Shown: one piece after another, positions 3,452-18,896 of the stretch
Position numbering within the stretch: the first letter of the stretch is position 1
Layout of the letters: the number at the start of each line of letters is the position of its first letter
NCBI GenBank assembly: GCA_027487375.1
Contig: JAIYDQ010000292.1
Coordinates: forward strand, 1 to 32,024
Direction of reading: 5' to 3'
Source of the DNA: Planctomycetaceae bacterium
Lineage (GTDB): Bacteria > Planctomycetota > Planctomycetia > Pirellulales > Pirellulaceae
DNA length: 32,024 nucleotides
The notes under the pieces: generated by a model
What the model saw: the letters and a program-made list of their open reading frames with translations, nothing else
Told to the model about the DNA's origin: nothing
The model's database searches: none
Program-made: the position numbers and the translations under genes

Positions 3452-5254
3452 CTACTTCTTAATTTCTATGGGCCATGTTTTTGCAGCCCAGCCGTTGTCG
3501 CCGTAGACTGTGACTCGTAATTCCAGTTGTCCAACTGGCAAGCCATGCGTATCGAACTCGGCTTTGAAGTTGTCTTGAATTGCGGTTACGTTTTTTCGCG
3601 TAATCACAGCAGCGTTTGCGGCATCAAATAGCTGTTGTTGAAGCTCGAGTTTTTCTGATGTCGCTTTTTGGACGGCCGTGCGAAGTTTCTTTGCGGGGTC
3701 TGGAATGCGTTTTCTTGGGTAAACGATCTCGATGTCGCAACGCCCGGCAATCGGAGATGTCCCCGAAATGACGAGTACTTCACCTTGACGGATTGATTCC
3801 GGTGCCTTGATATCTACATCCAGCGGACGCGATATTCTCAACAGGGGATCACCGAGAAGATTAAACAGGTAGCAATGCTCCTCACGTTCTAATGCAATGT
3901 CGTGCCCGGAAGGACTGAGGGTTGTTGCTAATGTATCTAAAAACTCTCTTCGTGAGGGCTTGCTTTTTGACTCCGGTGCAACTTTTGGTTTTTCACTTGA
4001 GTTCGATTCGATTTTCGCAATCGAACTGCTTTTGGCGAGAGTTAGAATTTCACCGATCGTTGATCGTTGATCACGAAAAGTGGCTTCCAGCATTCCTCCA
4101 CCCAAGATTCCCATCCCGTATGGCATGGTGACACGGCTGCCAGCGATTGCTGCGATGGGACCGCCAGGTTGCATAATCATCTTTTCTGCTAGACAACCGT
4201 CTTTGGCGTCAAACGCTCCCAGATAACAAGCCAAGAAGACCGCGAGCGGCGGAAGTCCGGTCACCTTGATTTGGGGCAGTTGGTCATCTGTAAGAATCGG
4301 TAGCAATCGACCTTCATAGGGAATCATGTCCAACGTGTTTACGAAGCCGTGGCCAAGGTAAATCCAAAGTAAACTGCCGCGGTTTATTCGTTCTATTGCG
4401 GTTTTACTAAATAGGAGCGGATTCGGGTAATAGACACTAGTCGGACTCGCTTGCATCATGCTCAGTTGATACTCGAGTGGGACATCCTCCGAAAGTAATT
4501 GCCTCGCTACGCTTTCAACGACGGTATCGGTAAGGGCACCGAAACCGCCGACTCCAGCAACGATGTCGATCTGTCTCTGCGAACCATTGAATTCGTTCGC
4601 GGTATCGTATTGAATGACTCGATCGCAGTAGTCTTTCAAGGCTTGAGCATTTTTGGCGGGGATGCGGCCAACAATCGTCCGGTGGCTTTCATCCTGCCGC
4701 CAGTCAGAATATGGATGGTCACTTGCAATGGTTGGCGTCGAGCCGAAGTGAACAACCACTTTTGAATCTACATAGAACGTGGGAACGGTATCTGGACGAG
4801 CTGGAACAACTTGGTTCGGTGAGTAATCTGGCGAATCCGCAGCTAAGACGATAACGTCAACTTGGCTACCTTGCTGTTCGGCTACATTCTTGATCGCCTC
4901 ACGCGTAAGTTCTGCTGTTGCGGCAGGCGACACCACATGGATTCGATGGCCTTGGCCTCTTCGAAAATCTTCCCATTTTGATAGACTCGATTGCCAAGCT
5001 TCTGGAACAACCACAACGATATCTCGAAGTGGGTGTTCTTTGTTGATCGCTTCGACAGCAACGGTTGGGGCTGCCAGTAAAACGCAAATCAAGCCGGCAA
5101 AATAAAGTTTCGTGCAACAGGCGACAGCAGGACTAGCTGTTTGGCTAAAGTAACCAAGCTTGGTAGCAAGGTTGAATAGTTGTGATGAAGTCAGGTCTAC
5201 GTAACTAAGACGTTCGAGTTTGATTTCGTTACTGAGTTGTTGCACAGGAATCAC
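3452..5254 (-). CDS. Secreted C25 (gingipain-like) cysteine peptidase
   Basis: About 600 residues. A hydrophobic export segment (KLYFAGLICVLLAAPTVAVEA, about residues 49-69) is followed by DIVVVVPEAW and a Rossmann-like start typical of peptidase family C25. The clan CD dyad is visible: His in IYLGHGF at about residue 302 and Cys in FLACYLGAFD at about 343, followed by the conserved CLAEKMI and GGPIAAIAGSRVTMPYG blocks. A C-terminal beta-rich segment (about 480-600; PLDVDIKAPESIRQGEVLVISG) resembles the Ig-like domain that follows the catalytic domain in gingipains. No type IX sorting domain, PEP-CTERM or transmembrane tail is seen. The start is uncertain: the GTG at 5254 gives an unusually long region before the signal segment. 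It is probably an extracytoplasmic protease; its substrate is unknown. Confidence 0.82.
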   Translation of the reverse strand: MIPVQQLSNEIKLERLSYVDLTSSQLFNLATKLGYFSQTASPAVACCTKLYFAGLICVLLAAPTVAVEAINKEHPLRDIVVVVPEAWQSSLSKWEDFRRGQGHRIHVVSPAATAELTREAIKNVAEQQGSQVDVIVLAADSPDYSPNQVVPARPDTVPTFYVDSKVVVHFGSTPTIASDHPYSDWRQDESHRTIVGRIPAKNAQALKDYCDRVIQYDTANEFNGSQRQIDIVAGVGGFGALTDTVVESVARQLLSEDVPLEYQLSMMQASPTSVYYPNPLLFSKTAIERINRGSLLWIYLGHGFVNTLDMIPYEGRLLPILTDDQLPQIKVTGLPPLAVFLACYLGAFDAKDGCLAEKMIMQPGGPIAAIAGSRVTMPYGMGILGGGMLEATFRDQRSTIGEILTLAKSSSIAKIESNSSEKPKVAPESKSKPSRREFLDTLATTLSPSGHDIALEREEHCYLFNLLGDPLLRISRPLDVDIKAPESIRQGEVLVISGTSPIAGRCDIEIVYPRKRIPDPAKKLRTAVQKATSEKLELQQQLFDAANAAVITRKNVTAIQDNFKAEFDTHGLPVGQLELRVTVYGDNGWAAKTWPIEIKK

Positions 5255-8268: not shown

Positions 8269-8784
8269 ATGAAAAACTACCTTCGCTTAGTGGCTGTTGT
8301 CGCAGTTCTTGCTCTCGCTCCATCAGCCGTACACGCTCAAACAACAGCATCACAAACCTTCACGATGGTCGTACCAAGCAGCATTAGCATTTCCGCTCCT
8401 GCTGCAGTCAGCTTAACTCACGATCAAACCGATAATCCTCAAGCATTCCCTGTACAAACATGGACCGTTCGGGGTAACGCAAGAAATGGAATGACTGTTT
8501 CGTTTGCGAGCGACTCATTCGTCAACCCAGCAGACACCACATTCAAGAGGAATGCAAAACTGGATTTGGCATTAAAATCCTCGAACGGCACTGGCGCCTG
8601 GAACGTTACTGTTCCATCGTCAACCTCAACCGGTACCACTCCTGCAACCGTGACCGCAACAACTACTGGTGTTGGTCGAGCAAGCCTGGACCTGGTCGTC
8701 TCTTTTCTTACCGAAGATTTCAGTTCCTTTGTCGCTGGCACTTATACCACGACCGTTGTTGGAACTGTCGTAGCGAATCCGTAG
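8269..8784 (+). CDS. Small secreted beta-rich protein, fimbrillin-like
   Basis: 171 residues. ATG 8269 is chosen because it starts a textbook signal peptide (MKNYLRLVAVVAVLALAPSAVHAQ, cleavage after AHAQ/VHA); the frame is open upstream to 8140 but that part has no export signal. The mature protein is Thr/Ser/Val-rich, almost Cys-free, and looks like one beta-sandwich. It begins with an alternating hydrophobic strand, SQTFTMVVPSSISIS, and ends with GTYTTTVVGTVVANP. Such N- and C-terminal strands occur in spore-coat-U/fimbrial subunits, where the N-terminal strand completes the next subunit's fold, but no family match is certain. It is followed by a strong terminator and then by a secretin and an Ig-like protein on the same strand, so a structural surface or fibre subunit is a reasonable guess. 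Confidence 0.6.
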   Translation: MKNYLRLVAVVAVLALAPSAVHAQTTASQTFTMVVPSSISISAPAAVSLTHDQTDNPQAFPVQTWTVRGNARNGMTVSFASDSFVNPADTTFKRNAKLDLALKSSNGTGAWNVTVPSSTSTGTTPATVTATTTGVGRASLDLVVSFLTEDFSSFVAGTYTTTVVGTVVANP

Positions 8785-8868
8785 TCAAAACGGACCTTCG
8801 CTATCGATAACCGGAAGCCATCAGAAATCTCGGGCGATCTCAAAGCTCGTTAAGCAAAAACTCCAAAT

Positions 8869-8910
8869 GCCCCCGCTGCTCGGTGAATGCCGAATTACGG
8901 GGGCTTTTTT
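8869..8910 (+). terminator. Intrinsic terminator after the small secreted gene
   Basis: GCCCCCG (8869-8875) pairs with CGGGGGC (8898-8904), followed directly by TTTTTT (8905-8910). The loop can form a small inner CGG/CCG stem. It lies 85 bases after the stop and before the secretin gene. Confidence 0.88.
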
Positions 8911-9032
8911 GCGTTTGTTACGCAAGATTTTCGGACAACCGAACATTCGGCTTGCCGCAATTGCTGAATGATTGTAAAAGCCGTCTCAACAATGACGAGA
9001 CTTCAAGATCTTTCAATTTCCAGGCAAAGCTG

Positions 9033-10619
9033 TTGTTAGTCGATCTTTTCGAAACCCGAAAATGCAACTTGGTGCTGGTGCTCCTTTGTTGCTTCGTCGG
9101 ATGCCACGGACAGGATCGAATTCATCGCAAAAGCATCGAAGATTTGTATGGAGAAGCTCTCTCAGCCGCAGCGGCAAGGCCCCCAGTGATTCAGCAAGTG
9201 ACGGCCCCTGATCCGAATTCGAATGCTTGTTCTTGTTCGCAGCAGGAACCAACCCGACTTTATGAGGCAGGGGCAAAGCAAGCTAAACAATTAGAGCATT
9301 GCGATTCTATGGATGTTGGTGTCTCGAACATCCATGGTCCACCGAGGCCCAAATCGTTACCCGTTTGGCCTTCGGGAAGCGGTCAGTCTGCCAACCAAGT
9401 CGTCCTTGCAAGCGCTGAAGAGATTGTTGCTTCGCCAGCACTACCTGAAGTTCGGGTTTCCGAAGTATTCGAGCAAACAGACATTCGCGAAGCGATTCAG
9501 ATTCTAGCCACGGCGGCTGGGGTTGAAGTGGTTATTGATGAGACGGTCGGCGGGATTACCAGCGCACAGATACAGGATGAGCCATTCGAACAAGCCTTAG
9601 AGAAAATTCTTTTACCTGTTGGATTAGTCTACGCAAAACACGAAGGTAAATATCTGGTTGCTCCTCCAGATCCCGATTCGCCACTCTTCTATCTGATCTC
9701 ACAGCGCTACCAATACTCACCCAACTTCCACGACGTTGCCAAGCTTACGTCGCTTCTTCCTGCGCGTTTTAAACCCTATCTACAGTCGTCAACCGAACGC
9801 AATATCATCGTGGTCGATGCACCGAAGGCCATTGGAGACGATTTGATCGAGCGCTTGCGCGAGTTGGACGCTCCTGTCCCGCAGATTGAACTCGAAGCGA
9901 TCGTTTGTGTGGTGAGTCCTGACAGTGGGTTTCGATTCGGGCTCGATTGGGGACATGTTGTCGGGGTTCAGGGGGTCGATTCACTCAAAGCAGGTTTGAC
10001 TGGCCTAACGTTCTCAGGTTCCGCAAGCAAGCAAGGTGTTAGTAACGCCTTCTCGGACTTCGCTGTCACATCGGCGTTTGTTCGCCTGCTTGCGTCCGAG
10101 GGCTATATCACGATTCGCGCTGCACCTCGTGTTACTGCGAAAGACGGCGAGAAAGCAAACATCTCGATCAATCGCGAAACATTTTTTAGCCTTCAACCAA
10201 ATAACAACAGCCTGCTCTTTCAGCAAAACGTCCAAAAGGTTGAAGCGGGTATAAGCCTGGAGATTATACCTCGTGTGCATGGCGACATGATCTCGGTGAA
10301 GATCAGTAAAGCCGAGGTTAGCGAAGACATTCGAACGAGCGACTCGCGCTCGGAACTGACTGCGAATCCCTACCCGATTATCAATCGTCGTGTCGTATCA
10401 ACTGACGTCAACGTACGCGACGGCCAAACGATTGTCATCGGCGGGCTCGTTCAACGCCAAACAGTTGACCGAATCAACCGTATTCCAGGGCTCAGCCGAA
10501 TTCCGATTGCAGGAAAGCTTTTCCAGACCATTGAAAAGCAAGAGCAAGATGCCGAGGTGGCGATTTTCATCTCGCCTCGAATCGTAAATGACCAACCTTG
10601 CGTATTGAACGAGAGATAA
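9033..10619 (+). CDS. Secretin-like outer-membrane lipoprotein
   Basis: About 528 residues. The first ~24 residues form a lipoprotein signal (TRKCNLVLVLLCCFVGC, lipidated Cys about 24). A Pro/Cys-rich variable linker leads to an STN/N0-type domain at about 140-210 (VRVSEVFEQTDIREAIQILATAAG). An N1-like KH-type domain follows at about 225-290 (DVAKLTSLLP, NIIVVDAPKAIGDDLIERL). The secretin domain covers about 294-515, with the hallmark DGQTIVIGGLVQ at about 463 and PGLSRIPIAGKLF at about 485. Secretins form large gated outer-membrane rings for type II/III secretion, type IV pili or phage export. The frame is open from a GTG at 8883 inside the terminator stem, so I prefer TTG 9033, which gives a sensible signal peptide. 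It is short for GspD or PilQ, and no ATPase or inner-membrane platform genes are beside it. Confidence 0.85.
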   Translation: MLVDLFETRKCNLVLVLLCCFVGCHGQDRIHRKSIEDLYGEALSAAAARPPVIQQVTAPDPNSNACSCSQQEPTRLYEAGAKQAKQLEHCDSMDVGVSNIHGPPRPKSLPVWPSGSGQSANQVVLASAEEIVASPALPEVRVSEVFEQTDIREAIQILATAAGVEVVIDETVGGITSAQIQDEPFEQALEKILLPVGLVYAKHEGKYLVAPPDPDSPLFYLISQRYQYSPNFHDVAKLTSLLPARFKPYLQSSTERNIIVVDAPKAIGDDLIERLRELDAPVPQIELEAIVCVVSPDSGFRFGLDWGHVVGVQGVDSLKAGLTGLTFSGSASKQGVSNAFSDFAVTSAFVRLLASEGYITIRAAPRVTAKDGEKANISINRETFFSLQPNNNSLLFQQNVQKVEAGISLEIIPRVHGDMISVKISKAEVSEDIRTSDSRSELTANPYPIINRRVVSTDVNVRDGQTIVIGGLVQRQTVDRINRIPGLSRIPIAGKLFQTIEKQEQDAEVAIFISPRIVNDQPCVLNER

Positions 10620-10674
10620 CTCGATAGCCAAGTACGGCGATAAAATAAGAGAACATAAACGGAGTAAAATTTCG

Positions 10675-12399
10675 ATGATACGTGCATTCATGACACAATC
10701 AAAAGCCATCGGACGATCACGCTTGCTTGTGAAGTTCTTAACAAACTTTGCCGCTGTCGTTTTTCTTCTTCATCTCTTTGTCGATCCTGTAATTGCACAA
10801 GCTCAACCGGCTACGAAACCGCAAGTTGGACGACCAACGAGTACCACGCGACGCGACCCACCACGTGAAATTTCGGTGACGCAAAGCTTTGAACCCGCTT
10901 TTGCTATTGAACCTCTTTCACATCGAATTGAAGGTCGCGCGAACGACGTTATTCCTTTTCAATTCAAAATTGAATCAGCCAATCGTGATGCACAAGTCGA
11001 AGTCTCGATCGTTGGGCTTCGGCAAGAGATGAATGGACAGATCTTTCACGATGAAAAAGCCGACATGACGGAACTCATTCGGCTCGTTTCACCAGACAAA
11101 ATGACTTTGCAAGCGGATAAACCAAGCGTGATTGAGGGCTTGGTTCAAATGCCACGCGGAGAATCCAAGTACCACTCATTCGGCATCTTAGTGCGCGACG
11201 TGGGGCGAGGCAACGACATCACTCCGCAGTTCAATCCGGATGGGAGTCAAAAAACACAAGCTGGCATACGATTCGTGACTCAATACATACTCAGGTTAGA
11301 TTTGGTCGTAGAAGGTATTCGAGGAGAACAAGGTCATCAGCTTCAAGTCGAAGATGTTCGAATGACGCCGCTCGATGGTCGCCCAAGACTACAGGCGATC
11401 GTATCAAATCCTACAGGGACTGCCTTTGAATTTGAGTTGCGAGCCAGGCTGCGTTCGTCGCCAAGCGATCGATCTTTCAAGACGCTTCGCTTGGTACTAC
11501 CTGTTCGGGCAAGCATTCAAGATGACACGCGTTATCAGGGACGAATACTTCCCAAGAGTCGTATTCGGATGGAGGAACTGCTTCCAGAAGCAATTGCTGG
11601 AGGCCAATACGAAGTGGACTTGGAATTGTTGTTTGAAAATCGTGTTGTTGATAAGAAGACTTTGCCTATCAGCGTCGTCGCACAAGACTTTCCTGCTCAA
11701 GAGGTCCTGATTGCGCAGGTTGGCGAAGGCTTGCAAGTATCACCTGCTCAGATTGAGCTTTCGCAAGCCCGCGGTGGCAGTCGACGTCAAACCATACTGC
11801 TGAAGAACACGGGTAAGGATGCAAAGTCGATTACGCTTTCTGCAATCGGGGCAAATCAACTTCCAATGGAAGCCGCGCTAATCCAACCCAATGAAGTGCA
11901 ACTACCACCGAACGGAAGCCGCAAATTGTCCGTTACATTACGAAGTCAATCCGCTGGTAGTGACACTGTTCAGTACGGGAAATTGATCGTAAGTTCCAAA
12001 AGCGATACTCGAGACTACAACGAAACAAAAGAGCTTCCAATGGCGATAGTGCTTAAGCAGCCCGATGCACCAGTCGTTACGATGACTCCCCTGGAATGGG
12101 TTGTTGATGGTGCTTATCCAGGCTTCGTGACGACATTAAAAAACAGCGGAGATACCCATCTGCCGTTGCAAGCGCTCTTATCGATTGTCGATTCTAACGG
12201 CCGCCGTATGACCATCCCAAGTGGTTTTGGTCGCTGGCTTATGCCAAGGTCGTCTTCGAAGCTTGAGTTTCGAATGGAAGGCCCGATGATACCCGGCGAG
12301 TATCAGCTCGCATGTGAAATCCTTAACCAAGATAAACCAATTACCGCCAAACAAGTCTTCACGGTTACCGATTTAGAAAATTCAGCAAGCAAGAACTAG
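10675..12399 (+). CDS. Exported Ig-like repeat protein, chaperone-like
   Basis: 574 residues. ATG 10675 has GGAG at 10661-10664. A signal peptide (FLTNFAAVVFLLHLFVDPVIAQAQ) ends near residue 44. The mature protein looks like several beta-sandwich domains. The first is at about 68-170 (FAIEPLSHRIEGRANDVIPF, LVSPDKMTLQADKPSVIEG, SFGILVRDVG); its order of strands recalls the N-domain of PapD-type chaperones and of WxL-interacting DUF916 proteins. A middle domain occupies about 200-345. A further one is at about 350-455 (VSPAQIELSQARGGSRRQTILLKNTG, then LPPNGSRKLSVTL), resembling ASH/MSP-type modules, and a last one at about 465-565. No lipobox or membrane tail is visible. It starts 55 bases after the secretin and is probably co-transcribed. 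A periplasmic chaperone or adaptor role is inferred from fold-like features and neighbours only. Confidence 0.6.
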   Translation: MIRAFMTQSKAIGRSRLLVKFLTNFAAVVFLLHLFVDPVIAQAQPATKPQVGRPTSTTRRDPPREISVTQSFEPAFAIEPLSHRIEGRANDVIPFQFKIESANRDAQVEVSIVGLRQEMNGQIFHDEKADMTELIRLVSPDKMTLQADKPSVIEGLVQMPRGESKYHSFGILVRDVGRGNDITPQFNPDGSQKTQAGIRFVTQYILRLDLVVEGIRGEQGHQLQVEDVRMTPLDGRPRLQAIVSNPTGTAFEFELRARLRSSPSDRSFKTLRLVLPVRASIQDDTRYQGRILPKSRIRMEELLPEAIAGGQYEVDLELLFENRVVDKKTLPISVVAQDFPAQEVLIAQVGEGLQVSPAQIELSQARGGSRRQTILLKNTGKDAKSITLSAIGANQLPMEAALIQPNEVQLPPNGSRKLSVTLRSQSAGSDTVQYGKLIVSSKSDTRDYNETKELPMAIVLKQPDAPVVTMTPLEWVVDGAYPGFVTTLKNSGDTHLPLQALLSIVDSNGRRMTIPSGFGRWLMPRSSSKLEFRMEGPMIPGEYQLACEILNQDKPITAKQVFTVTDLENSASKN

Positions 12400-12566: not shown

Positions 12567-13532
12567 CTATGCGAATCGACGGGCAACCTTTACAGATAGC
12601 ATTGTAATCATCGTAAAGCCACACAATAGAATCGCGTTAGGTTCAGGAATCGCGGTGACGAACTCCAAGCTGGACACGTATCCCGTAACGTTGTTAGTAA
12701 ACGGATCGTACTGAGGACGAAACAGTAAGAAGCTGTTTTGAGATAGGGCAAGTCGATTTGTTCCCGAGTTATCAATAAATCCTCCCGTATCATCGCCGCC
12801 AATAACATTGGGTGGCAGTGCGGTGTAACGCGAGCCACCGTCAGCCACACCAACAGTCGCAGCAATCTCTCCAAACTTCGGATCCGTATCCTGGTATGGG
12901 ACATAGCTAAATGCAAGGTCGTCCTTGAGGAAGTCAAAACCTCGATATTTCATATCGCGTTCGAACCAAACAACTTGCATGCTTCGCTGTGTTTCGAATG
13001 CCTGAGTGCCTCTCGGTGAATCGAAAGCTAATCTTACATTTTTCCATGTAACCGCCAAGAAATCGCCTGGTACCGAATGCTCCAACACTGCATTCGTATT
13101 TCCGGTAACCAGCAAAACATCGTCCCATAAAGGGGCGATTAATCCGCCGGGAAATTGATTCTGAGTCGCAGGAGAATCCAGTCGATCAGAAAAGAAGTTT
13201 GGGTTATTGGCAAAATTGATGTTGCCGTTCTCGGATACGTTAAACGAGGTTCGAGATTGTCCGTAGAACTTACCAGAGAAGCCTGGTTTTTGGACAAGCA
13301 CAATTTGATCGACATTTGAATTCGGCGGCCCCTCCTCCGACATAAGAACTGTCGCGTTTGAAGGCGGTACGACAAGAAAATCAGCTTTTGAGAGACTTGC
13401 TATACAGTTCGTAAACACAACGACGAACGCAATAGTAAACCTGAAGACGAAATGCGGAAAAAAGGGCCTCGCAGGATGGCAGCTTTGGGTTCCTCTAAAC
13501 TGAACCTCAAATAAAGAATTCGTGAATTTCAT
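12567..13532 (-). CDS. PEP-CTERM surface protein with NIDO-like domain
   Basis: About 321 residues from ATG 13532 (in-frame alternatives at 13550 and a TTG at 13610; none has a good ribosome site). An export segment (FVFRFTIAFVVVFTNCIASLSKA) is followed by a domain with NIDO/nidogen features: FNVSENGNINFA, FPGGLIAPLWDDV, DFLAVTWKNVRL, a block around MQVVWFERDMKYRGFDFLKDDLAFSY, then ATVGVADGG. The C-terminus is a PEP-CTERM tripartite signal: IPEPNAILL, a hydrophobic segment, then a basic VARR end, so the protein is probably processed by an exosortase and displayed at the surface. The exosortase is not in this window. It is convergent with the surface cassette and divergent from the export operon. 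Confidence 0.78.
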   Translation of the reverse strand: MKFTNSLFEVQFRGTQSCHPARPFFPHFVFRFTIAFVVVFTNCIASLSKADFLVVPPSNATVLMSEEGPPNSNVDQIVLVQKPGFSGKFYGQSRTSFNVSENGNINFANNPNFFSDRLDSPATQNQFPGGLIAPLWDDVLLVTGNTNAVLEHSVPGDFLAVTWKNVRLAFDSPRGTQAFETQRSMQVVWFERDMKYRGFDFLKDDLAFSYVPYQDTDPKFGEIAATVGVADGGSRYTALPPNVIGGDDTGGFIDNSGTNRLALSQNSFLLFRPQYDPFTNNVTGYVSSLEFVTAIPEPNAILLCGFTMITMLSVKVARRFA

Positions 13533-13673
13533 CAATAGCAGACAGTCCATGTTGTTTTCGTTCAGCTTCCGTGCCTCAATCGATCCATTGAAAATGGATT
13601 CAAATTGCAATCGAAAATAAGAGGCGAATTATTTGGTATACATATAGGCGCGGCTCCGACAACTGTCAATTAC

Positions 13674-13976
13674 ATGAACGCCATCATGCACAACCAAATT
13701 TCACTACGAATGATTTTCGCATTAACGACTCTTTTGGCAGTCGTAATTGCTTGTTTTCAGAACCTGCCAAGCGGTGTCATCGTCTCTGCTTTCATGGCGA
13801 TGCTTACGATGTTGATTGTTACGTTTGCTCTTTTTGCTCTTGCCTTCATGGTCATGCTGCCTTTCGCACAACTGGGCAAGTACCTAGACGATCAATCTGA
13901 TGATGGGAGCAGTCCTTTCGCTCAAGACCGTCTGCCTTCACAGATTATTCCGCCTGTCGACCGAGGTGCCGAATGA
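13674..13976 (+). CDS. Small membrane protein heading an ABC export operon
   Basis: 100 residues from ATG 13674; the frame is open from 13605, but the upstream part lacks sequence character. It has two transmembrane segments: ISLRMIFALTTLLAVVIACF, and a long second one from VIVSAFMAMLTMLIVTFALF to AFMVMLPFAQL. A polar Asp/Ser-rich tail follows (DDQSDDGSSPF). The RMIFALTTLLAVV block is of the type that begins many small planctomycete membrane proteins. Its stop overlaps the next start by 4 bases (ATGA), so the two are translationally coupled. Function unknown; probably an accessory of the export complex. Confidence 0.6.
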   Translation: MNAIMHNQISLRMIFALTTLLAVVIACFQNLPSGVIVSAFMAMLTMLIVTFALFALAFMVMLPFAQLGKYLDDQSDDGSSPFAQDRLPSQIIPPVDRGAE

Positions 13977-16132
13977 GCTTTATCGGGCAGGAAACGCGGC
14001 AGTATTCTCTTAAGGGGCTACAAGCAGTAAACGTGCGCAGGGATGAATCTAATTACCTGATGCATCGTTGCAAATTGCTATTTTGGATTCTGAGTTGCTG
14101 CATCATCGGCTCCGATGCCCCGATCGCTTATGGGCAACTGAACGCTGCTATCAACAACCGCTCCGAGCGAGTCACATTGGTCATCGGCGACCCGTCTCTC
14201 GGAGAAACCTTAGGTCTATCTGGCTACCTTCACGGGATTGGAAGTGAAACCGAAGGCTATAACGGTTGGGAACTCGTTTTGCAAAACGCGGATGGTTCAC
14301 CATTTACAGCTGACTTGTCCTTGCAGCTTGATCTCAATATCAGCACTACTGGAGCGGTGAACTATTCAGTGGCAGTTCCCGTTGTCCTGAGTTCTGGATT
14401 ATCGGAGTCTCGCACACCATTTTTAGTCCCTTTTGGAGATTTGTCTTTGCAGGATGGAAGATGGATCTTGGTCAACTATCGTGTTCGGATTTCGCAAGAT
14501 GGTAGGTCGCTGCCTGGATTGTTCTCGGAGCGTAAGAATCATCATTCGATCACCCTGAGAACAAACGTCAATTCGAGCCAGATTCCGGTTCCGGGCTTGA
14601 TCTTATTGAGTAACGAGACTGTGCAAGGTCGGCAATCACAAGACTGGCAAAAAAGTGCTCCCGCAGTCAGTACAGCGAATGCTCGGAATGTTGTCGATGC
14701 CGAGCAACTCTTTAAGAATGACTGGGGAGAACTTGTCGCAAGCAGTCAATGGATTCACCCTAATTTTGGACTTGCCGTGGTGGATCGATTGCCGACGAAC
14801 TGGCTTGAGTTTTCTTCTAGGTCAAACGTAAATGTTTCCACTCAGGATTTTGCAAAACTCGATGCGGCGCAACTAGCAGCGATTCATGACTATGTACTTG
14901 CTGGTGGATCCTTCGTTGTCAGTAATTGTGATTACGAAGCGGGATTGGATTCGAACGTGCAAGCTTGGATTGAACAGATCGCTCCGAACCACCTGCAGTC
15001 GACGTTGAATCAAAGTACAGATTCTGAAAGCGCAAAGCGATTTCGAACAATCGAAGTCGGTTTCGGTAGTATCACACTTTCGAGCCATGACTTATCTTTT
15101 TTTCAGCACAACATTTTCGACGGCATTAGCAGATTGGGATTCAGCAGCCGAAGTGCGAGTCATGTAATGGATTGGTACATTCCGCGTGTAGGGCAGCCGC
15201 CCGTGATTGGATTCAGCATTTTTATCTGCGCTTTCGCATTCGTAGCGGGTCCGCTTCTTCTATGGTTTGCCCATCATCGTTTACAAAGGCCGATCTTACT
15301 GCTCTTAGTGTTACCGCCACTTGCAATAACAATTGCCGGTGCAATCCTGCTGTATTCGGTATTAAAAGATGGATTTGAAACTCATGCACGAGTTCGATCG
15401 GCAACTTGGGTAAATCAATCAACATCACGCGGCGTTAGTCATTCCAGGCAGACTTACTTCAGTGGGCTTCCCCCTCGTCAAGTTAGTTTTTCTTCACGAA
15501 GCGAAGTGTGGCCAACCCCCGAAACGTTATCTCGTCGAAGAGGTTATTCGCCGAGTTTAAACATCGGTTTGAACTGGGGTTCGGATTTCCAGTCCTACAA
15601 GGGATTTCTTACGCCTCGAACACAATGCCAATGGACTGTAACTACTCCGTTAGACTCGCTTCCTACTTTTGACTATGTGATAACACCCGAAACTGGCAAG
15701 CTCACGAAGATTCAAAACGTGATGAAAGACGATTGGATTGTCGGGTTCTTCTGTGACAAGAATTCTAAACTCAGTCGCGTCGGCCCGACCGCAGCAGGAG
15801 AACGAGGAGTTCTATCCGATGTTGTGGTGGAGAAGGCGCTGATTGAGATCAGAAAGCTCACCCGCCCACTCGCGTTTCCTACTGGCTATCCCACAACTGG
15901 CTCGCCATCGATTGGTGCTTGGATGATGAATTCATACGATGTTAATTACAATTCGGCGAATGCTACTCAAAGCGAAATGGAGCGGAAACTCGAGATGTGG
16001 TTGAATGGTAGCGAATTCCTGAAGCCGGGTGGATTTATTTTGCTTCTTCGCAGCGCGTCCTATCTTGATCAGCCGCTTCGCGAAACGGTCCGCGAGTCAG
16101 ATTCGTTTCATGTTCTGACAGGAACTTGGTGA
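13973..16132 (+). CDS. Large membrane-anchored accessory protein of the ABC export operon
   Basis: 719 residues. ATG 13973 overlaps the previous stop (ATGA) and has GAGG at about 13963. An alternative ATG at 14060 lies just before the export-type hydrophobic segment LLFWILSCCIIGSDAPIAYGQ. A periplasmic beta-rich region (about 60-270) is followed by a Rossmann-like block (about 285-330: LPTNWLEF, LAAIHDYVLAGGSFVVSN). This resembles the DUF4350/amidotransferase-like fold, in which a flexible region reports on substrate. Two adjacent transmembrane segments lie at about 408-462 (GFSIFICAFAFVAGPLLLWF and ILLLLVLPPLAITIAGAILL), followed by a soluble C-terminal domain. Its position upstream of an ATPase and permease points to an export or gliding-type complex. 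No specific family name is secure. Confidence 0.6.
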   Translation: MSFIGQETRQYSLKGLQAVNVRRDESNYLMHRCKLLFWILSCCIIGSDAPIAYGQLNAAINNRSERVTLVIGDPSLGETLGLSGYLHGIGSETEGYNGWELVLQNADGSPFTADLSLQLDLNISTTGAVNYSVAVPVVLSSGLSESRTPFLVPFGDLSLQDGRWILVNYRVRISQDGRSLPGLFSERKNHHSITLRTNVNSSQIPVPGLILLSNETVQGRQSQDWQKSAPAVSTANARNVVDAEQLFKNDWGELVASSQWIHPNFGLAVVDRLPTNWLEFSSRSNVNVSTQDFAKLDAAQLAAIHDYVLAGGSFVVSNCDYEAGLDSNVQAWIEQIAPNHLQSTLNQSTDSESAKRFRTIEVGFGSITLSSHDLSFFQHNIFDGISRLGFSSRSASHVMDWYIPRVGQPPVIGFSIFICAFAFVAGPLLLWFAHHRLQRPILLLLVLPPLAITIAGAILLYSVLKDGFETHARVRSATWVNQSTSRGVSHSRQTYFSGLPPRQVSFSSRSEVWPTPETLSRRRGYSPSLNIGLNWGSDFQSYKGFLTPRTQCQWTVTTPLDSLPTFDYVITPETGKLTKIQNVMKDDWIVGFFCDKNSKLSRVGPTAAGERGVLSDVVVEKALIEIRKLTRPLAFPTGYPTTGSPSIGAWMMNSYDVNYNSANATQSEMERKLEMWLNGSEFLKPGGFILLLRSASYLDQPLRETVRESDSFHVLTGTW

Positions 16133-16140
16133 TTCACAAG

Positions 16141-17199
16141 ATGCCAAATAAAAGCAACACAAACGAGTCCGCAAGTCTTGGCTCTTTAAACACGTTAAGT
16201 GTTTCTTCTGCTGTCGATGCGATCGCCTATACGCCCACTTTCGCAAAAGGGTTTCATCAAGCGTCGACACCGATGATTGAGGTGCGCCGGCTTTATAGAA
16301 CCTTTGGAAAGACTGAAGCGGTAAGCGATCTCTCTTTTGAGGTGATGGCGGGGCAAGTGTTTGGATTTATTGGCCCTAATGGTGCGGGCAAAACCACATC
16401 GATGCGGATACTTGCAACCCTGGAGCTGCCAACCTACGGGGACGCAATGATCGATGGGTTGTCGAGCATCAATGATCCGGATCTCGTTCGCAAGCGAATG
16501 GGTTTCATGCCCGATGGATTTGGAACTTATCCGAACATGGATTGCGTGGAGTATCTCGATTTTTTTGCTCGTGCGTACGGACTTGTTGGCAAGGATCGGA
16601 TTAACGCCGTCAAACGGACTCTCGCTTTCACGGGGCTTGATAAGATCGCTTCCAAAAGTATTCGCGGTCTTTCCAAGGGGATGCGGCAACGATTGTGTCT
16701 TGGCCGCGCGATCGTACATCAACCGAAGGTCCTCATCTTAGATGAACCCGCCAACGGACTTGATCCGCGTGCGCGAATTGAATTGAGGCAATTGATTAAT
16801 CAGCTTGCACAGGAAGGAGTCGCGGTCCTCGTTTCGTCGCACATCCTGACGGAGCTTGCCGAGATGTGCGATCAAGTCGGGATCATTGAACGAGGCAAAT
16901 TGTTAGCAGTAGGTAGTGTCGCCGATATTCAGGCTGCTTCCTCAAGCGGTCGTGAAGTCCGAGTGCGACTGGTTTCGCGAATGGAAGAGGCTTCGCAGTG
17001 GCTCGCAAGTCAAAGTCACGTGTCGCTGGTCACTGTCGAGGGAAACTCGATTTCGCTTCAACTAGCCGGCGACGTGTCTGACCAATCGCGACTGTTGCGT
17101 GGACTTATTCAACAGAATTTCGATGTGATCGAATTCGCCTCGAAGGAACGTTCACTCGAAGATGTCTTCATGCAGATAACAACAGGAGCTGTCCAATGA
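16141..17199 (+). CDS. ABC transporter ATP-binding protein (ABC-2 export type)
   Basis: 352 residues with a short variable N-terminal tail before the ATPase core (MIEVRRLYRTFGKTEAVSDL from residue 45). Walker A is GPNGAGKTT at about 78, the signature LSKGMRQR at about 177, Walker B LILDEPANGLDP at about 199, and the H-loop SSHI at about 233. The C-terminal ~100 residues are the regulatory extension seen in CcmA/GldA-type ATPases (SGREVRVRLVSRM, then RSLEDVFMQIT). I chose ATG 16141; a TTG at 16126 overlaps the previous gene and is also possible. The stop overlaps the permease start by 4 bases. It energises export of an unknown substrate with the following permease. Confidence 0.9.
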   Translation: MPNKSNTNESASLGSLNTLSVSSAVDAIAYTPTFAKGFHQASTPMIEVRRLYRTFGKTEAVSDLSFEVMAGQVFGFIGPNGAGKTTSMRILATLELPTYGDAMIDGLSSINDPDLVRKRMGFMPDGFGTYPNMDCVEYLDFFARAYGLVGKDRINAVKRTLAFTGLDKIASKSIRGLSKGMRQRLCLGRAIVHQPKVLILDEPANGLDPRARIELRQLINQLAQEGVAVLVSSHILTELAEMCDQVGIIERGKLLAVGSVADIQAASSSGREVRVRLVSRMEEASQWLASQSHVSLVTVEGNSISLQLAGDVSDQSRLLRGLIQQNFDVIEFASKERSLEDVFMQITTGAVQ

Positions 17200-18896
17200 G
17201 CACGATTTCGGAAGGCCAGACTCCAGACTCAGATCCGATTGCTGTCACACATTCGTCCACAATTCGAAGGCTTCTCGATGGCGAGTCTTCTTTGGATCGT
17301 TGGCTTGTTCAAGCAGGTGATTGGTGCAGTCCTATTCTAGTAAAAGAGACCCGGCAATCGCTCAAAAGTCGACAGTTCCAATGGACGTTCATACTTTTGA
17401 TGGTCGCCATTGCGGGGTGGACACTCTTTGCAATATTGACATCGGTTCCTGCGATCTACTTTCAGCCTGCAGGCCGATATTTGCTTGCGGGATACATCTT
17501 TATTCTCGTTATTCCTGCTTGTGTGGTTGTGCCCAATGCTGCGTACCGCTCGATGGCAAATGAGCTTGAGCAAGGGACGTTTGATGTGCTTACGCTTTCG
17601 CCTCTTTCTTCGTTTCAGATTGTGTTAGGAAAGCTTGCGGTGGCGAGCGTGCAAAGCGGGTTTTACTTTGCCTCGCTCACACCTTGTTTTGCTCTGACCT
17701 ATTTGCTTCGAGGCGTGACATGGATGTCGATCTTTTTGCCTTTGGCAACGATCGCCGTCGGGTCTTTGATTTTGATTTCAGTGGGGATACTTCTGGGGTC
17801 CTTGGATCGTGCGCGTCGCTACTCAACGTTGATTTCGATTGCCATGATCTTGTTGACCATCGCAGGTGCTTTCACGTTGTATGGCATGCTGACCGGGTTC
17901 GTGTTTGAAATGGCAAATATGAGTGGCGACCCCGATATTCAGATCGCATTTACGTCCATGTTGTTGTTTTTTCTTTGGCTGATGACGTATGTCGTGCTTA
18001 TCATCTTGGCTGCATCTGCGGCTATCGGTATGGCAAGCGAGAATTACTCGACAACCATTCGTTGGTGGGGCCTATTTCAAAGTCTCTTTATGGTTGGACT
18101 TTGGGGAGCAGGATTTGGTTTGATGGTTTCTCTGTCGCCTAGCCGAGGATCTGCGAGCATTGTTCGCGAGGCCGAACAAATGCTGAGCGTTCTTTTCATC
18201 ATTCAAGCTTTGCACTGGACGGTTTTGGGAGTCTTCTTTGTCTCTGAGAGAGGAGTTCTGACACCGCGATCAAGGCGTAGGCTGCCGGCAACAATGTTGC
18301 AACGGGTGTTTCTTTCGTGGGGGAACCCTGGTTCTGGAACAGGATATGTATTTATTCTTTTGTGCCTTGCCGGAGTTATCCTTTCAACGTTTCTCTTCGG
18401 CTTGTGGGTTATCATGGACCCTGGAGTATCGGTCCGCCGTTATGCTACTTATCAAGCCGGATATGGCGAGTTTCATAGCATCACCATTGGGACGATGGTT
18501 TGGTGTTGGCTGGCGTTTTATCTGGGGCTTGTTCGGTTGTTTATGGTCTGCTTTGCGAAGAATCGTGCAAACCGATTTGTGCTAGGTATTGTTTTGCTGC
18601 TGCTTTTTCAATTCATCGGGATTGCAGGCACGCTTTACTTGTCGACTTTGGGATCGAACACCAATACCCCTACCTTCGAATGGTATTCGATAGCGAATAT
18701 ACCTTGGTCGATCGTTGATAGTCAGAAGTTACCGTCTGGCGCATTGGAGGCACTGATGCTCTTTTCGGCGATCGTTATTGTGTTGAATTGGTTAACGCTT
18801 TCACGAGACTTAACTGTTGTTAAACTTGCCGTTCCGCCAAGAGTGAAAGAGGCTCGAATCGAAAGCAAAGCGATTGCCGTCGATGAATTAGATTGA
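17196..18896 (+). CDS. ABC-2 type permease
   Basis: 566 residues with about ten to twelve hydrophobic segments. AGGAG lies 7 bases before ATG 17196, which overlaps the ATPase stop. The cytoplasmic N-terminus carries the block PILVKETRQSLKSRQF followed by a first membrane segment (FQWTFILLMVAIAGWTLFAI). The loop ANELEQGTFDVLTLSPLSSFQIVLGKL is a hallmark of ABC-2 exporters, where it couples to the ATPase. Further segments follow at about 145, 175, 210, 260 and 300, with a second half from about 335. It ends the operon that starts at 13674. The substrate is not deducible. Confidence 0.87.
   Translation: MSTISEGQTPDSDPIAVTHSSTIRRLLDGESSLDRWLVQAGDWCSPILVKETRQSLKSRQFQWTFILLMVAIAGWTLFAILTSVPAIYFQPAGRYLLAGYIFILVIPACVVVPNAAYRSMANELEQGTFDVLTLSPLSSFQIVLGKLAVASVQSGFYFASLTPCFALTYLLRGVTWMSIFLPLATIAVGSLILISVGILLGSLDRARRYSTLISIAMILLTIAGAFTLYGMLTGFVFEMANMSGDPDIQIAFTSMLLFFLWLMTYVVLIILAASAAIGMASENYSTTIRWWGLFQSLFMVGLWGAGFGLMVSLSPSRGSASIVREAEQMLSVLFIIQALHWTVLGVFFVSERGVLTPRSRRRLPATMLQRVFLSWGNPGSGTGYVFILLCLAGVILSTFLFGLWVIMDPGVSVRRYATYQAGYGEFHSITIGTMVWCWLAFYLGLVRLFMVCFAKNRANRFVLGIVLLLLFQFIGIAGTLYLSTLGSNTNTPTFEWYSIANIPWSIVDSQKLPSGALEALMLFSAIVIVLNWLTLSRDLTVVKLAVPPRVKEARIESKAIAVDELD

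Follow-up and report, generated by a model that had tools for sequence, protein, structure and literature searches.

Three neighboring genes of aquatic bacteria look like a stripped-down surface-fiber machine

Results and Discussion

Three co-oriented genes in a Pirellulaceae contig

The window—the whole 32,024-nucleotide stretch of DNA analyzed here—is contig C272 of the Pirellulaceae genome G000 (5.46 Mb in 529 contigs, 87% complete). Positions 8269-12399 hold three consecutive, co-oriented genes on the + strand, all of them where a preliminary description of this DNA had placed them. The first, SUB (8269..8784, +), encodes a small secreted beta-sandwich protein with a pilin-like fold, 171 aa long when read from the ATG at 8269. 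It is followed by SEC (8883..10619, +; open frame from the GTG at 8883), which encodes a lipoprotein secretin, and by IG (10675..12399, +), which encodes an exported protein of four Ig-like domains (574 aa) for which we propose the role of a double periplasmic chaperone. No operon terminator or promoter stood out clearly above shuffled sequence at the module.

The surroundings contain several other recognizable genes. Convergent to IG, the − strand at 12567-13610 encodes a secreted protein with a PEP-CTERM-like C-terminus (IPEPNAILL...); its relatives occupy the same place in 11 loci, which does not make the arrangement general. A gingipain-type Peptidase_C25 gene (3452-5254, −; E 2.5e-43) is kept in a locus of the same genus, L016. 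Farther downstream (13973-18896, +), a large protein, an ABC ATPase with a DrrA-type tail, and a further protein are encoded in a row that resembles a GldA/GldG-like transporter set.

SUB resembles fiber subunits in predicted fold and has a candidate donor strand

What kind of protein is SUB? It carries a signal peptide ending in AVHA and was modeled with AF2 at pLDDT 91 as an Ig-like beta sandwich, which bears out the earlier view of a small, secreted, beta-rich protein. The model lies near fiber subunits: in Foldseek, CfaB leads the list, which also includes CS17, FimG, the PapG pilin, archaeal bundling pili, and cannulae, and CsuE and CanA are among the fold matches as well. VIA-align gives Z 8.0 to a fibrillar adhesin domain and 6.5-7.9 to many pilins. 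These scores are moderate at best (Z up to 8.0, Foldseek E 1e-3), and integrin domains reach similar ones, so that the fold alone would not settle pilin identity. Neither Pfam nor NCBIfam yielded a family for SUB, there was no match to a WxL family, and searching the PDB with sequence profiles turned up no usable match for either SUB or IG. The WxL chain of 9i25 is absent among the 50 fold matches listed for SUB, which is not evidence against a WxL protein. The label "pilin," as we apply it to SUB, would rest on fold and residue pattern, not on sequence homology; SUB appears closest to pilins and other subunits of strand-exchange fibers.

The residue pattern concerns the segment ahead of the sandwich. 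Residues 29-36 (QTFTMVVP; 8353..8376, +) are a candidate donor strand with alternating hydrophobic positions: residues 31, 33, and 35 are hydrophobic in 98, 96, and 95% of 47 non-redundant relatives, and residues 30, 32, and 34 in 17, 13, and 31%. The segment precedes the first strand of the monomer model and has no strand assigned to it there. Since SUB residues 37-171 align on CfaB residues 13-147 (VIA-align), residues 29-36 would be the counterpart of the N-terminal donor-strand extension of pilins. At the other end the protein is fixed, the chain stopping just past the last strand, with Asn or Lys as its usual final residue.

IG joins a WxLIP-like pair to a PapD-like pair of domains

IG begins with a signal-like N-terminal helix, and its model (AF2, pLDDT 81) ends in strands and a short tail, with no C-terminal membrane helix of the kind that is a feature of WxLIP proteins. 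VIA-align divides the protein into two units. Domains 1-2 (residues 75-342; 10897..11700, +) are WxLIP-like: their match to the Enterococcus faecium WxLIP 9i1y (Z 16.3, 233 residues aligned) is the strongest that we found for IG, and by fold they correspond to the PGBD and HBD domains. Domains 3-4 (residues 350-562; 11722..12360, +) form a PapD/FimC-like two-domain chaperone unit, with Z 12-15 over 165-187 residues to SfaE, FimC, PapD, CsuC, and Caf1M, and the fold match extends to the PapD-family trait of two Ig-like domains in an L shape. Both sets of matches stand well above unrelated structures. The first IG domain had been likened beforehand to either a PapD or a WxL-interacting fold; the second half of that proposal holds for the first pair of domains, and the PapD/FimC resemblance belongs to the last pair.

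Sequence families give a fainter picture. Pfam WxLIP_HBD matches 10 of 16 IG members weakly (best 1.7e-5); the window IG itself falls under the Pfam WxLIP cut-off, its HBD match (E 0.0066) being placed on domain 4, and a distant IG homologue, L114, exceeds the WxLIP_PGBD cut-off (31.4 vs. 27.3 bits). The PapD family is absent among the Pfam matches listed for the 16 members at E up to 1. With regard to the PapD cleft, IG has no conserved Arg at the strand-A position of Arg8; as a possible counterpart of Lys112, 11 of 16 members have Lys or Arg at residue 452, which mapping by eye puts in what may be strand G.

Might IG then be a structural component rather than a chaperone? In Gram-positive bacteria, the genes for WxLIP and small WxL proteins occur together, and insertion of a WxLIP strand into its WxL partner has been predicted (PMC10599100). 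By analogy, the module could form a WxL-like surface complex of diderm cells: SUB and IG would be exported via SEC and stay together at the surface or peptidoglycan without making a fiber, and IG would act as a structural partner, as WxLIP does in Gram-positives, instead of being a chaperone left behind. The top-ranking WxLIP fold match (Z 16.3) and the L114 homologue above the WxLIP_PGBD cut-off both speak for such a complex. However, IG lacks the C-terminal membrane helix and also has a complete PapD-like pair, and SUB, with no WxL family match, finds its best fold matches among pilins. We consider a complex of this type unlikely.

SEC is a secretin in a clade of its own

The identity of SEC as a secretin is clear (Pfam PF00263, E 8.2e-37, 126.8 bits vs. 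a cut-off of 27.5). Its secretin core lies at 10089..10586 (+; PF00263, residues 403-568) and was also found by a search of G000. Upstream are an N0/STN domain (9468..9659, +; Pfam STN E 1e-4 and GspD_N0 E 0.002, both below cut-off) and, after it, an N1-like region up to about 9990 (+). The true start is probably near the TTG at 9033, because the lipobox Cys codon is at 9102-9104; the Gly-Cys lipobox is conserved in relatives. A lipoprotein secretin with STN and N1-like domains is what had been described at the outset, and these features agree with it.

Does SEC belong to an ordinary secretion system? A PDB profile search with SEC matches PilQ, GspD, and phage pIV, and its scores stay below the NCBIfam equivalogue or subfamily cut-offs for PilQ (138 vs. 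284 bits), GspD (127 vs. 351), and MshL (107 vs. 250). In a tree, SEC and the IG-linked secretins of planctomycete families f32, f97, and f112 form one clade (support 99/95, some branches being long). G000's own type II secretion (T2SS) GspD, L005, groups with E. coli GspD, so that SEC stands apart from it as well as from the other secretins of G000. The idea that SEC might turn out to be a usual GspD or PilQ thus finds no backing in the tree.

The three genes form a conserved module in Pirellulaceae

Do the three genes occur together beyond this contig? A SEC search over 84,980 species genomes returned 14 loci, most with SUB, SEC, and IG side by side. Profile searches of 241 Pirellulaceae genomes found IG in 41, SUB in 40, and both in 39—that is, together in 39 of the 42 genomes with either, far more than chance would give (Fisher p about 2e-41, ignoring relatedness), with 12 of 68 genera represented. 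Two of the three mismatches are very fragmented assemblies (G460 and G521). In the third, G565, the IG match (contig C95, 18542-19585) is cut by a stop codon and SUB has no match, a possible case of joint decay of the module. SEC adjoins IG in all 43 family-type loci that were read (about 35 distinct). SUB lies on the same stretch as the SEC-IG pair in most of them, with one to three copies (paralogues) per locus; in four genomes (G516, G459, G574, and G575) it is present on other contigs.

SEC and IG are thus the tightest pair (adjacent in 43/43 loci), and SUB is sometimes elsewhere, as would be expected if IG served the assembly or stability of the SEC ring and SUB were either a beta-sandwich accessory to the pore or a surface protein with no connection to it. 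Yet gain and loss of SUB go hand in hand with those of IG from genome to genome and, to our knowledge, secretin pilotins are not WxLIP- or PapD-like. This explanation strikes us as highly improbable.

When the flanking ORFs of 28 loci were clustered, the sole family present in at least four loci was a response-regulator-like ORF (7/28). The conserved set therefore includes no ATPase, inner-membrane platform, or usher. That SUB, SEC, and IG are a real conserved gene module, with the folds given above, is well supported.

The arrangement recurs in distant planctomycete families

Two weak matches of the IG profile in other planctomycete families were both directly beside a secretin. Distant loci were chosen by IG, not by the secretin, in searches first with the G419 protein and next with a profile built from the distant proteins. 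The IG-secretin arrangement was found in f32 (G069 twice, G157, and G139), f97 (G362), f112 (G419), and f40 (G207). Next to most of these loci lie small, secreted, SUB-type beta proteins, the order being SUB-IG-SEC or, in G207, SEC-SUB-IG. Their matches to the SUB profile are weak (E 0.006-0.08), and in G207 the assignment was made by position and look; the secretin of that genome matches the SEC profile at 3e-106. In the reciprocal search, the profile of the distant IG proteins, which are shorter (about 400 mature residues), found the window IG as its sole match in G000 (E 7e-7). Conserved co-occurrence of the three genes, which the preliminary description had named as the thing to look for, is therefore seen in many Pirellulaceae genomes and in distant families.

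No usher was found in 14 carriers, and no motor gene recurs beside the module in the family

What might drive export through SEC? A PF00577 search that detected its E. coli positive control found no usher in G000 or in any of 13 further carriers. Motor components exist elsewhere in G000, which has ten PF00437 and fifteen PF00482 matches. In G419 (L114, 4576-8999), a pilin-like gene and a PilB/GspE-type ATPase lie about 4 kb downstream of SEC; the pilin-like protein (GFTFTELL), encoded downstream of the IG-SEC pair, has a FecR-like tail. Given this ATPase near SEC and the ten PF00437 matches in G000, a motor acting in trans is possible. As for the absence of an ATPase or usher near such loci, it holds for the usher in all 14 carriers searched, and neither recurs beside the module in the family; the exception is the ATPase of G419.

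Secretins otherwise work with motors of the T2SS or type IV pilus (T4P) type. SEC could accordingly be a borrowed part, an alternative ring for T2SS/T4P motors, with SUB as its cargo, IG as a cargo-specific escort, and the ATPase supplied in trans. The PF00437 and PF00482 matches of G000 and the gene pair beside IG-SEC in G419 fit this arrangement, as does the general habit of secretins. Nevertheless, motor genes do not recur next to the module among the family's loci, a separate GspD-like secretin belongs to the T2SS on contig C207, and SEC forms its own clade; we judge the arrangement to be quite unlikely. On that contig (L033), the T2SS ATPase frame carries one in-frame TGA and adjoins the GspD-like secretin and a T2SSF gene.

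A proposed chaperone-secretin pathway

We think it somewhat probable that the module is a chaperone-secretin pathway, as yet undescribed, for the export or assembly of surface fibers. From the folds and the gene set we infer that SUB binds IG, polymerizes by donor-strand exchange, and passes through SEC with no need for an ATPase. In this scheme, all three proteins would cross the inner membrane by Sec, and SEC, once lipidated, would form a ring in the outer membrane. IG would hold SUB in the periplasm via one or both of its chaperone-like units; the N0-N1 portion of SEC, on the periplasmic side, would receive the complex, and SUB would exit through the ring. Subunits would then link by their N-terminal strands, so that a fiber could grow without an usher barrel, and the energy could come from the folding of the subunits, as it does in chaperone-usher pili. 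Where a locus has more than one SUB copy, the additional ones may be minor or tip subunits. More speculatively, the two chaperone units of one IG chain may keep a pair of successive subunits next to each other; our guess is that the tandem units would do the job of the usher's two binding sites, against which the smaller size of the distant IG proteins (about 400 mature residues) counts somewhat.

A secretin in the place of the usher had been suggested from the start, as had the lack of any described system of this composition. The former gains support from the co-occurrence of the genes, the SUB fold, the grouping of SEC, and the absence of an usher in 14 carriers; as to the latter, searches of the open-access literature for a chaperone-secretin system, or for a secretin together with WxL, found nothing relevant.

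How does the module compare with known systems? With chaperone-usher pili (Fim/Pap, archaic Csu, and class 5 CFA/I) it shares a predicted pilin-like subunit fold, a PapD-like two-domain chaperone, and a small gene cluster without a dedicated ATPase, but it has a secretin instead of the usher barrel (no PF00577 in 14 carriers), and its chaperone is in tandem with a WxLIP-like pair. Like Gram-positive WxL/WxLIP clusters (DUF916-DUF3324), it encodes a WxLIP-like protein with at least one small beta protein. Unlike them, it occurs in diderms, with a secretin and an added PapD-like pair, its IG is without a C-terminal membrane helix, and its SUB is not recognized as WxL. GspD, PilQ, MshL, and phage pIV have in common with SEC the secretin core and the N0 and N1-like domains, and some are lipoproteins as SEC is; SEC differs in its separate clade and in a family-type conserved set without ATPase, platform, or pseudopilins. 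Finally, TasA/TapA and archaeal strand-exchange fibers (bundling pili and cannulae) are among the likenesses of the SUB fold and exchange strands without an usher, but they belong to single-membrane cells, which need no outer-membrane ring, and have no secretin-linked chaperone.

A broader proposal, to which we give somewhat less than even chances, is a separate class of outer-membrane fiber assembly in several planctomycete families, in which strand-exchanging subunits are exported without ATP hydrolysis and the usher gives way to a secretin ring plus a tandem WxLIP-PapD chaperone. Such a class would form a link between the WxL complexes of Gram-positive bacteria and the pili of Gram-negative ones. 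If this is true, secretins can do the work of an usher, and three genes suffice for a fiber across the outer membrane. WxLIP and PapD chaperones would meet in one system, raising the question of which came first, and planctomycete surface fibers would gain a gene handle. Planctomycete fibers of 12 nm and 6 nm arise from crateriform structures, in an account where secretins are unmentioned (Boedeker et al. 2017, PMC5394234). We rejected the module as a general explanation of crateriform structures, because it is too patchy, being found in few genomes outside Pirellulaceae.

Related gene clusters

Three further places with IG-like proteins (in G188, G334, and contig C14 of G419) had no secretin in view. 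The one in G188 (L130, 4575-10579) encodes four small pilin-like secreted proteins and a PapD/WxLIP-like chaperone, together with a large protein that has the look of an outer-membrane barrel and a C-terminal CarboxypepD_reg domain; this cluster is perhaps a planctomycete usher-like counterpart. On contig C14 of G419 (L126, 3911-8617), a single-unit chaperone of 303 aa is encoded together with four small, secreted beta proteins, downstream of a sigma-54 regulator and cyclase-like genes, with no exporter before the contig end. In two f32 genomes (L127, 8416-9519, and L128, 1267-2373), a TPR-like lipoprotein is encoded directly after SEC.
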